64,000 nt of DNA from the NCBI GenBank assembly GCA_902622595.1, contig CACNQM010000003.1, forward strand, positions 1 through 64,000. The letters run 5' to 3'. Positions 8,374-11,064 of this stretch are shown one piece after another. Numbering within the stretch: position 1 is the first letter of the stretch; every line of letters begins with the position of its first letter. Source of the DNA: an uncultured Bacteroidota bacterium. Its GTDB lineage: Bacteria > Bacteroidota > Bacteroidia > Flavobacteriales > Flavobacteriaceae. Both the position numbers and the translations under genes were made by a program. A model generated the notes under the pieces. That model did not search any database. It was not told the origin of the DNA and was given only the letters and a program-made list of their open reading frames with translations.

Positions 8374-9132
8374 ATGTCAATAAATATTTTTAAGAAGGGT
8401 GATCAAGCTGATGGGAGTTTTAATAATGGAGAAATTCTTGAAAAAAAACCAATTGGTTTTCCACAAGACGGCGGAAAGTTAAAGCCATATTCAAATTTAT
8501 TTTATTGGGCGCATGCATGGGCACCAAACAATGATAGCGAAATTGGACTTCACCCTCACAGAGGATTTGAGATATGCAGCTTTGTTTTAGAAGGAGAAAT
8601 TGAACACTATGATACTTTACTTGATAGATGGATCACTTTAAATCAAGGAGATGTTCAAATTATAAAAGCTGGTAAGGGTATATCTCACTCTGAGAAACTA
8701 AAGAAAGGCTCTGAAATTTTTCAAATTTGGTTTGATCCAAATATTCAAGAATCACTTTATATAGATGCAAGCTATAGTGATTTTAGATCAACAGATTTTA
8801 AAATTAAAATTCGAAATAACATAGAATCTAAAATTGTTTTATCAAATGAAAACCAACTTTCCCTTCAATCAAAAGGTATAGAAATCTATGAACATAAATT
8901 TAATAATGGAAAACACTCTTATAAAATAAAAGATAAATGTTATCACTCATTTTTTATTTTAAATGGTATACTTGAGATAAATAATCAACAATATACTCGA
9001 GGTGATTTTTTAATAATTGATAACGAAAATAATTTAGAATTAGTTACAAAAAATAATACTAAGGTTTTTGAGATTGTATCACTAATAAGCCCTCCTTATA
9101 AAACCTATGCTGAAATACATAAAATTAGTTGA
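8374..9132 (+). CDS. Pirin-family bicupin protein
   Basis: 252 residues. The first cupin domain carries the pirin signature 'HPHRGFE' (His60, His62), with further likely metal ligands in 'GISHSEK' (about 107-111). A second, degenerate cupin covers about 170-250. Bacterial pirins are cytoplasmic metal-binding proteins, some with quercetinase activity, others regulatory; which applies here is unknown. The gene starts 14 bases after the lipoprotein gene and is followed by a strong hairpin, making it the last gene of the msrA-pirin transcript. Confidence 0.9.
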   Translation: MSINIFKKGDQADGSFNNGEILEKKPIGFPQDGGKLKPYSNLFYWAHAWAPNNDSEIGLHPHRGFEICSFVLEGEIEHYDTLLDRWITLNQGDVQIIKAGKGISHSEKLKKGSEIFQIWFDPNIQESLYIDASYSDFRSTDFKIKIRNNIESKIVLSNENQLSLQSKGIEIYEHKFNNGKHSYKIKDKCYHSFFILNGILEINNQQYTRGDFLIIDNENNLELVTKNNTKVFEIVSLISPPYKTYAEIHKIS

Positions 9133-9156: not shown

Positions 9157-9190
9157 GAAAGCCCGACTCACGAATGAGTCGGGCTTTCTA
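9157..9190 (+). terminator. Strong hairpin terminator after the pirin gene
   Basis: A perfect 14-bp stem (9157-9170 with 9175-9188) encloses a CGAA loop. The stem is unusually GC-rich for this genome. The flanking T/A runs are modest on both sides, so it may act in both directions, ending the minus-strand unit from 10009 as well. Confidence 0.8.
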
Positions 9191-9265
9191 ATTCTCTTTA
9201 AGTGATTCTTAAATTTCTTTAAGTCCTAGATAATCTTTCTGATAATCACTTAAAATTTCACAAGT

Positions 9266-9307
9266 TATATCTCGGCTTACGCTTCGAGGTGCTTGATGAT
9301 TCTTCCA
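9266..9307 (-). repeat. Diverged direct repeat, copy A
   Basis: Reads on the minus strand as TGGAAGAATCATC... through AGATATA. It aligns with copy B at 9400-9442 over about 42 bases with many matches. The similarity continues weakly for about 35 bases further downstream on the minus strand. Confidence 0.5.
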
Positions 9308-9399
9308 GCACTTTGACTTGATCTTTTTTCTTTAAACACTATTGGGTTTCCAAATTTCAGTTAATCTTACTGGTTTTTTATGTTTAAAGTTAGATAAGG

Positions 9400-9442
9400 T
9401 ATATCTTAGTTTACACTTTGAGTATTATGGCGGATTTTTCCA
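9400..9442 (-). repeat. Diverged direct repeat, copy B
   Basis: Reads on the minus strand as TGGAAAAATCCGCC... through AGATATA and aligns with copy A. In one frame it gives a continuous stretch containing SKCKLRYTLSNFK, whereas copy A has SKRKPRYNL followed by a stop and NFK. Confidence 0.5.
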
Positions 9443-9545
9443 TAATTTCCTCTTATCTTTTATAAATGTAGTAATCTAAATAGAAAAAACAAATATAAAA
9501 TTTAAATTGTTAATAACTTTTGTTAATACACTAATCTTCAATGAC

Positions 9546-9611
9546 TTAGCAATCACAACAAGTACAATTACAAGATTTATTACAGCTACATTGAGTACAG
9601 TTGCAACCCAT
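9546..9611 (-). CDS. Cysteine-rich micropeptide, metallothionein-like, 21 residues
   Basis: A clean ATG (9611) to TAA frame encodes 21 residues, nine of them Cys, in the pattern C-x-C-x2-C-x-C-x3-C-x-C-x-C-C-x-C after Met-Gly. The other residues are Asn, Thr, Ser, Gln, Lys and Asp; no hydrophobic residue is present apart from Met1. An in-frame TAG lies six codons upstream of the ATG, so it is not the tail of a longer protein. It starts 24 bases after the 119-residue gene on the same strand and probably shares its transcript. The composition suggests soft-metal binding (Cu, Zn, Cd) as in metallothioneins, but no known family is matched. The short length leaves some chance of a fortuitous frame. 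Confidence 0.55.
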   Translation of the reverse strand: MGCNCTQCSCNKSCNCTCCDC

Positions 9612-9635: not shown

Positions 9636-9995
9636 TTAACTGATTATAATTTTTTTGTAATAATTTTCCAATCCTTTTTTATATGCAACAATAAATTGAT
9701 AAAATCTAAACTCATTTAAATTTCCATACCTATTAAACTCATTGTAAGTATTAGATTGATATCTTTTTAACCTCTTGTCTAATAAATTCTGTAATTTTTG
9801 AACTTTCTTGAATTTTAATTTCTGAGTCTTACTTTGGTGTAATTCAGATTCATATTTATTAATTATAAATTTTATTTCTTTTGGTGAAAGTTCAGAATAT
9901 TTTAGTGGATTATTCCAGCTTTTATTATACTCATTCTGTAACCATCTATATTCTTTGTAAAGTCCATTAATAAAACAAATCAGAAATATATTCAT
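9636..9995 (-). CDS. Unknown Lys/Tyr-rich protein of 119 residues
   Basis: Start chosen at the ATG at 9995, because the earlier ATG at 10004 falls in a TAnnTTTG element on this strand. The product has a short hydrophobic N-terminus (NIFLICFINGLY), possibly a signal or anchor, then a strongly basic helical region with many Lys, Tyr and Asn (about 15-115). I recognise no family. The gene stands alone on the minus strand between the pirin terminator and the tRNA, and is followed 24 bases later by the cysteine-rich micropeptide. A small plus-strand frame (9507-9719) overlaps its end and looks like a shadow. Confidence 0.55.
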   Translation of the reverse strand: MNIFLICFINGLYKEYRWLQNEYNKSWNNPLKYSELSPKEIKFIINKYESELHQSKTQKLKFKKVQKLQNLLDKRLKRYQSNTYNEFNRYGNLNEFRFYQFIVAYKKGLENYYKKIIIS

Positions 9996-10039: not shown

Positions 10040-10112
10040 GGGCAATTAGTTCAACTGAATAGAACAGAAGATTACGGCTCTTCAGATGGGGGTTTGAGTC
10101 CTCCATTGCCCT
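10040..10112 (+). tRNA. tRNA-Arg (anticodon ACG) with an unusual D-loop/T-loop pair
   Basis: Cloverleaf by eye: acceptor GGGCAAT with ATTGCCC (10040-10046, 10105-10111), D stem GTTC/GAAC, anticodon stem GAAGA/TCTTC with loop TTACGGC (anticodon ACG at 10074-10076), and T stem GGGGG/CCTCC with one G-T pair. The D loop AACTGAATA carries A at position 19 (10058), where G is nearly universal. The T loop TTTGAGT carries T at position 56 (10095), where C is nearly universal. The two changes would restore a tertiary pair as A19-U56. The CCA end is not encoded. The Na/Ca exchanger gene begins 13 bases later. Confidence 0.8.
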
Positions 10113-10125
10113 CAAATTTATTTAA

Positions 10126-11064
10126 TTGGATTATTTAGGAATTTTATTTGGTGTAATACTTCTCTCGCAGGGTGGAGATTTATTGACTAAGTCATCAGTT
10201 GATATTTCATTTAAATTATCTATTCCTAAAATAATCATTGGTATGACAGTTGTTTCATTTGCAACATCTGCACCAGAATTAATAGTTAGTCTTAACGCAA
10301 CCCTTGATGGTTTGCCAAATTTTGCAATAGGTAATGTCTTGGGCTCAAATATTGCAAATTTTGGTTTAGTGCTAGGAATAATTACTATTATATATCCAAT
10401 ATCATTAAAACAAAGATTTTACAATACAGATTTTCCCTTATTGATAATGTCTACTTTTTTGTTTTACTATGTAATCTACACTGAAAGTCAAATATCTAGG
10501 GTTGAGGGTATTATTCTAGTAATAGCAATTACATTAATATTGTTCTATCTATTTTTTTATCAAAAAAATGATCAAAGTGAATTCTCTGAAAAACTAGATA
10601 AAGATAAAATTTCAATTTTTAAATCCTTTCTATATATACTATTTAGTGGATCTCTTTTATGGTTGGGTTCGGAAACTCTTATAAAGTCATCAGTATCTGT
10701 CGCCAATAAGCTTGAAATTTCTGAGAGAATTATTAGTATAACTATGGTAGCTATAGGCACAAGTGTTCCTGAATTAGCTGCATCAATCGTTGCTTCCTTA
10801 AAAAAACAAAATGATTTATCAATAGGTAATTTAATAGGCTCAAATATATTTAACTTACTCGTTGTTATTGGCATAACATCCAGTATCATACCAATAAATG
10901 GTATAGACAAGAGTATAATTAATAATGATATGCTTTGGGTTGTTTTATTTTCAGTAATTATATTCCCACTTGCATATTTAGGTAAGAGAAATGTCTTAAC
11001 AAGAAAAAAAGGGATTATATTATTAGCATTATATCTAATATTTATAATCCCTCTATTAATTTAG
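10126..11064 (+). CDS. K+-dependent Na+/Ca2+ exchanger-like (YrbG/CaxA family) membrane protein
   Basis: 312 residues with about ten hydrophobic segments in two inverted halves. The two alpha repeats are visible as 'ATSAPELIVS' with 'GNVLGSNIANF' in the first half and 'GTSVPELAAS' with 'GNLIGSNIFNL' in the second; their acidic residues bind the cation. The start is TTG at 10126: an in-frame TAA immediately precedes it, and no ATG occurs until later in the first helix. The gene begins just after tRNA-Arg and ends four bases before the convergent glutamine synthetase gene. It probably exports Ca2+ across the inner membrane. Confidence 0.9.
   Translation: MDYLGILFGVILLSQGGDLLTKSSVDISFKLSIPKIIIGMTVVSFATSAPELIVSLNATLDGLPNFAIGNVLGSNIANFGLVLGIITIIYPISLKQRFYNTDFPLLIMSTFLFYYVIYTESQISRVEGIILVIAITLILFYLFFYQKNDQSEFSEKLDKDKISIFKSFLYILFSGSLLWLGSETLIKSSVSVANKLEISERIISITMVAIGTSVPELAASIVASLKKQNDLSIGNLIGSNIFNLLVVIGITSSIIPINGIDKSIINNDMLWVVLFSVIIFPLAYLGKRNVLTRKKGIILLALYLIFIIPLLI

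Follow-up and report, generated by a model that had tools for sequence, protein, structure and literature searches.

The usual metallothionein motifs are C-x-C and C-C, and the bacterial proteins SmtA, BmtA, and PmtA are 56 to 70 residues long with His ligands, according to PMC12193353. The repressor SmtB adjoins SmtA according to PMC7387436, and PMC7558416 describes mycobacterial MymT as a 4.9-kDa, Cu(I)-binding protein that was found as a small unannotated Cys-rich open reading frame (ORF). Solved structures include the beta domain of vertebrate metallothionein (2mhu; human MT-2, 30 residues, nine Cys) and the copper metallothionein of Neurospora crassa (1t2y; 25 residues, seven Cys), from which we conclude that a single cluster within about 20 to 30 residues is feasible.

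Here, we describe a 21-residue, nine-Cys peptide encoded in the window, the whole 64-kb stretch of DNA that was analyzed. Our main finding, which goes beyond the first-pass annotation of this DNA, is that the same peptide occurs in many uncultured phage contigs. The locus contains the following protein-coding and tRNA genes.

8374..9132, plus strand: pirin-family gene (PF02678), convergent flank
9546..9611, minus strand: Cys-rich peptide gene, M-x-C-x-C-x2-C-x-C-x3-C-x-C-x-C-C-x-C-stop (evidence: translation, conservation, codon test, and the same peptide in viruses)
9636..9995, minus strand: 119-residue ORF with no family match, upstream of the peptide gene and adjoining it in 12 of 18 congeneric loci
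10040..10113, plus strand: tRNA-Arg (acg), divergent flank
10126..11064, plus strand: sodium/calcium exchanger (antiporter) gene (PF01699), syntenic flank in 18 of 18 congeneric loci

By the broad definition, the peptide resembles a metallothionein: it is small and very Cys rich, carries both C-x-C and C-C motifs, and has few or no aromatic residues. It shares with the vertebrate beta domain nine Cys, C-x-C repeats, a C-x-C-x2-C-x-C block, and a lack of aromatic residues, but that domain is longer, is half of a two-domain protein, follows a CxC-x5-CxC-x3-CxC-x2-CxC-x2-C spacing, and shows no sequence-profile similarity to the peptide. The N. crassa protein is likewise a single, tiny, free-standing Cys-cluster peptide; it differs in being fungal, in its seven Cys and other spacing, and in giving no profile match. 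SmtA, BmtA, and PmtA are comparable as bacterial Cys-rich metal-binding proteins, although metal binding by the peptide itself is predicted. They are longer (SmtA and BmtA, about 56 residues or more) and use His ligands, whereas the peptide has 21 residues and no His. SmtB lies beside SmtA; no SmtB-type repressor, divergent or otherwise, lies beside the peptide gene, whose neighbors are the tRNA-Arg, antiporter, and pirin genes and the ORF without a family match. MymT, set beside the peptide by description only, is also a small unannotated Cys-rich ORF but, at 4.9 kDa, about twice the size.

Family searches were negative. None of 39 members matched Pfam, NCBIfam, or PHROGs at E values up to 1, neither of two members matched the curated metallothionein models of Pfam and NCBIfam at E values up to 10, and two profiles found no match among PDB sequences at E values up to 10.

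A conserved coding gene

Minus-strand translation of 9546 to 9611 gives MGCNCTQCSCNKSCNCTCCDC followed by a stop, with Met1 as the sole hydrophobic residue, just as the first-pass annotation had it. A Cys content of 30% or more is reached by one ATG-to-stop ORF of 15 to 60 codons in the window and by none in 60 dinucleotide-preserving shuffles of it (top Cys content, 27%), which bears out the earlier view that a chance origin is unlikely. We found a single copy in the genome carrying the window (1.34 Mb, 85.7% complete), which comes from a lineage of Bacteroidota with small genomes.

Searching with the protein identified 18 of the 25 congeners, among them the window's own genome, plus one genome of another genus (G028). 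A profile search concurred, adding only an 11-residue match at an E value of 0.49 (G009, L152) that contained no such peptide under the ORF rule used. In all 18 congeneric genomes, the frame has neither a stop nor a frameshift, and across the 19 bacterial loci, Cys 3, 5, 8, 10, 14, 16, 18, 19, and 21, the peptide length, and the stop directly after Cys21 are invariant. The start codon is ATG in 18 of these loci and ATA in one (G004). TGT and TGC are exchanged at every one of the nine Cys codons, so that Cys spacing persists through synonymous change. The Nei-Gojobori dN/dS ratio was 0.079 over 171 pairs, at a dS of 2.7 that is near saturation; seven closely related sequences taken as a subgroup gave 0.089. 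The peptide ORF is a real, strongly constrained, and conserved coding gene; conservation, the codon test, and dN/dS strongly support the proposal that it had escaped annotation and that its Cys spacing is under selection.

Seven of the 25 congeners gave no full peptide match, and the flanking antiporter gene was likewise not found in any of them. An empty answer to the antiporter search proves little by itself, with recovery at 18 of 18 congeneric loci serving as an indirect control. Because the flank is missing too, these seven genomes say nothing against the peptide; in one of them (G017), a contig end can be seen to truncate the locus.

Beyond the genus, the peptide was present in 3 of 299 genomes of a family sample (the window's own, one congener, and G028) and in 2 of 22 genomes from the genus of G028. 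Order and phylum samples of 395 genomes each matched at E values below 0.01 only for the window's own genome. Two weak order-sample matches (L155 and L156), once read, proved to be a 23-residue variant, MDCNCDKCNCGSSCSCGSDCSCA; used as a query, it was found in 3 of 88 genomes of that variant's family, all in one genus. The third such relative (L403) is MGCNCDNCNCGQSCSCGSDCSCC. These 23-residue peptides (L155, equal to L401; L156, equal to L402; and L403) have eight or nine Cys spaced C-x-C-x2-C-x-C-x3-C-x-C-x3-C-x-C. The counts of 3/299, 2/22, and 3/88 indicate that the 21- and 23-residue forms are patchy and span at least three genera. Seven other weak order- or phylum-level profile matches (L153, L154, and L157 to L161) contained no such peptide under the ORF rule used.

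Cellular contigs were scanned with a Cys pattern lacking start and stop, and the matches listed were mostly (TGC)n poly-Cys frames. Among them were 824 pattern frames in 119 loci, of which three had frames with 11 or fewer Cys. The only real member among the matches listed (L147) encodes the same peptide as a congener (G024).

Bacterial neighborhood and a downstream structured RNA

The 119-residue ORF (122 residues counted from a TTG) ends at 9636, 24 bases from the peptide gene on the same strand, as described earlier. The suggestion that the two belong together did not hold: 6 of 18 congeneric loci keep the peptide without that gene, and we rejected an operon of the two. Present at 12 of 18 loci, the larger gene is not an obligate partner. 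By eye, we saw no metal regulator or efflux gene next to the peptide gene in the window.

A tRNA-Arg gene adjoins the peptide gene in congeneric loci, and a tRNA-Val gene does so in G1043; at the G028 locus, a tRNA-like 3' end was seen by eye only, and ARAGORN found none. We considered tRNA adjacency as a sign of integration and rejected it, as L155 and L156 lack a tRNA and the side and strand vary. At the G028 locus (L027, 1 to 480), the peptide gene lies upstream of an EF-Tu-like gene and either overlaps or directly adjoins a lipoprotein-like ORF that contains Cys.

Downstream of the peptide gene lies a region with RNA features.

9461..9493, minus strand: promoter-like stretch TTTG...TAcaTTTA between the peptide and the RNA (alignment of 19 loci)
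9329..9458, minus strand: structured RNA copy 1, directly downstream of the peptide; covariation in 19 of 29 pairs, 135.8 bits
9195..9323, minus strand: structured RNA copy 2, in tandem; 73.4 bits over the full model length
9157..9188, minus strand: strong terminator-like hairpin ending the RNA

The model was built from an alignment of copy 1 in 16 congeners, which shows compensatory changes in 19 of 29 pairs; copy 2 was left out of model building. Of the 25 congeners, 17 carry this RNA of about 130 nucleotides, nine of them as two copies; a search of 75 other genomes did not find it. No Rfam family matched there above gathering scores. The region (9157 to 9458, minus strand) is thus genus restricted, single or tandem in congeners, and equipped with its own terminator-like hairpin and a stretch that we take to resemble a Bacteroidota promoter consensus.

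The same peptide in uncultured phages

A search of IMG/VR with the pattern ATG-x-C-x-C-x2-C-x-C-x3-C-x-C-x-CC-x-C-stop matched at least 120 viral stretches. All 120 listed encode a genuine 21-residue peptide rather than a poly-Cys frame and yield 77 distinct sequences; the matches listed include 80 viral contigs from 74 metagenomes. Because the Cys pattern served to select these peptides, its conservation among them carries no independent weight. Among the 77 viral and 19 bacterial peptides, one contains His and one contains Tyr, with His absent from all 19 bacterial peptides. Residue 2 is mostly Lys in the phage peptides and Asp in the bacterial ones, and when the pattern was made to require Asp there, no viral contig in IMG/VR matched. 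Among patterns that required ATGAAN, a shorter-linker variant matched two IMG/VR stretches, whereas longer-linker, longer-first-gap, and shorter-first-gap variants matched none. Nine viral stretches encode one or two extra C-terminal residues. As judged from these pattern searches, Cys spacing in the viral peptides is strict. The peptide is single copy in each of the 15 viral records searched.

Cultured phages gave no clear counterpart. A tblastn search with the peptide returned no match, probably with the BLAST low-complexity filter masking the query, and blastn gave only weak matches (67 records, those listed at E values of 0.09 or more; in a further search, five records at 0.5 or more). We read these as chance, because the annotated ones among those listed lie in genes of unrelated function, structural ones included. 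Phage-flank DNA had no match to cultured phages, and the peptide was in none of three phages with related capsid, primase, or terminase genes (immuto, PTm1, and LR756500). We found no phage metallothionein in the open-access literature; the Ab31 phage paper mentions a metallothionein in a bacterial gene table.

Phage context was read from mechanical ORFs of at least 45 residues around the listed loci. The neighboring gene shares the strand of the peptide gene upstream in 111 of 115 loci, within 20 nucleotides in 103 of these 111 (median, 8), and downstream in 108 of 116, within 20 nucleotides in 61 of the 108. In 61 of 120 loci, the four ORFs on either side include a cluster that matches PHROGs major head protein, head maturation protease, clamp loader, primase, exonuclease, terminase, or holin, based on one scanned representative per cluster. 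Many of the other 59 have a cluster resembling a dehydrogenase or thymidylate kinase, and some have only genes of no recognized kind. Recurrent small phage genes without a PHROGs match were also seen beside the peptide across L162 to L281 (such as cluster 1, 87 residues, in 39 listed loci, and clusters 3 and 13).

We scanned for the capsid protein of one context and took the best 80 of 591 relatives, of which 51 had both flanking genes. In 14 of these 51, the peptide gene occupies a gap of 87 to 95 bases. The other 37 sites are empty, with a gap of -4 (flanking genes overlapping at the alignment level) in 20 and of -7 to 354 in 17. The peptide gene is accessory at one site in one phage group.

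The hosts are likely Bacteroidota. The phage primase and terminase are 61% and 58% identical to those of Flavobacterium phage immuto, and capsid relatives include Prevotella and Tenacibaculum phages (31 to 39% identity). Bacteroidota are not known to rely on Shine-Dalgarno motifs, and such motifs precede 1 of 120 listed viral peptide genes, 22 of 778 large phage ORFs, and 3 of 45 ORFs in the window. Against this assignment, and keeping it at likely, stand the predominance by count of cyanophages among capsid matches (376 of 548 records named Synechococcus), a Microcystis phage terminase that is 53% identical to the phage-context terminase, and a dehydrogenase whose nearest relatives, at below 30%, are human-gut and Campylobacter phages.

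Proposed function and alternatives

We consider it likely that the product is a free-standing, minimal, metallothionein-like metal-thiolate peptide. The Cys fall into two C-x-C-x2-C-x-C blocks separated by a linker of three residues, the second block having one Cys more; this fixed nine-Cys spacing, together with the near absence of His and aromatic residues and a length too short for an independent fold, points to a metal-thiolate cluster. Once translated, the peptide would enclose soft or borderline metal ions within a single cluster through its nine thiolates, and that cluster would itself supply the fold. The predicted load is either several Cu(I) or, by analogy with the vertebrate beta domain and its nine Cys, about three Zn(II) or Cd(II). 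In bacteria, the peptide may buffer Zn or Cu; in infected cells, it may reserve metal for phage use or shield against oxidants and freed Cu or Cd. It has probably moved between phages and flavobacteria. The earlier proposal of a minimal metallothionein thus stands as the best functional reading, although the peptide falls outside the metallothionein families of Pfam, NCBIfam, and PDB. Counting against that reading are this lack of a match to any metallothionein model or structure and the lack, next to the gene in the window, of a metal regulator, an efflux gene, or SmtB, with which cyanobacterial metallothioneins usually share an operon.

An unlikely alternative is a redox peptide of thiol or iron-sulfur type, in which the Cys would serve not as a d10 metal buffer but as a reductant reserve or to carry persulfide or Fe-S. 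It would fit the FAD-dependent dehydrogenase-like gene that comes next in one phage context (cluster 2, 38 of 120 listed loci; phrog_12409, PF07992), but that gene is missing from the other contexts (82 of 120), and the dense, fixed C-x-C and C-C spacing exceeds the needs of a thiol reserve. Somewhat less probable still is a narrow-client, metallothionein-like chaperone that would supply zinc to the zinc proteins of the phage. In one context, the next gene (cluster 4) has two C-x2-C pairs, a zinc ribbon by eye only, given its lack of a Pfam match, and another context has, in that position, a primase whose N-terminal region is Cys rich. The would-be clients vary by context, however, and the bacterial locus has no such neighbor.

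We hold it very improbable that the peptide is a Cys-rich leader regulating a downstream gene in response to cysteine or metal. Its shortness, its Cys content, and its tight coupling in phages (upstream gaps of 20 nucleotides or less in 103 of 111 listed same-strand cases) would suit a leader, but the downstream gene varies among phage contexts, no same-strand gene follows in the window (only the RNA with its own promoter-like stretch), and stalling does not need nonconsecutive codons at fixed spacing. Small Cys-rich peptides are often secreted disulfide, toxin-like, or RiPP types; that this is one is extremely improbable, as Met at -2 of the first Cys leaves no signal or leader segment, the Cys count is odd, and the annotated neighbor clusters show no maturation genes. 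We give next to no credence to an untranslated chance ORF or RNA element, despite an ORF below the usual gene-calling length and a conserved RNA just downstream: besides the shuffles and codon-level conservation, the fold of the 66-nucleotide ORF is unremarkable (z, -0.01), so that RNA structure does not explain it better, and the downstream RNA matched none of 71 other peptide loci searched, 69 of them among the at least 120 viral ones, which encode the peptide all the same.

Implications

For the metallothionein-like reading as extended to phages, we see about even chances that many uncultured phages, their hosts probably Bacteroidota, have in their late and replication operons an accessory gene for a 21-residue metallothionein and thereby commandeer host metal handling, while the same peptide persists in host chromosomes. 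If so, the peptide would be among the smallest natural metallothioneins, a phage gene class missed by annotation owing to its size. Occupied and empty sites in otherwise similar phages make the function of the peptide directly comparable. If the peptide binds metal, then it would be a natural one-cluster metallothionein small enough for synthesis and residue-by-residue variation, metal handling would emerge as a contest between phages and flavobacteria, and metal buffering would be a widespread phage function, overlooked because the gene is only 66 bases long.
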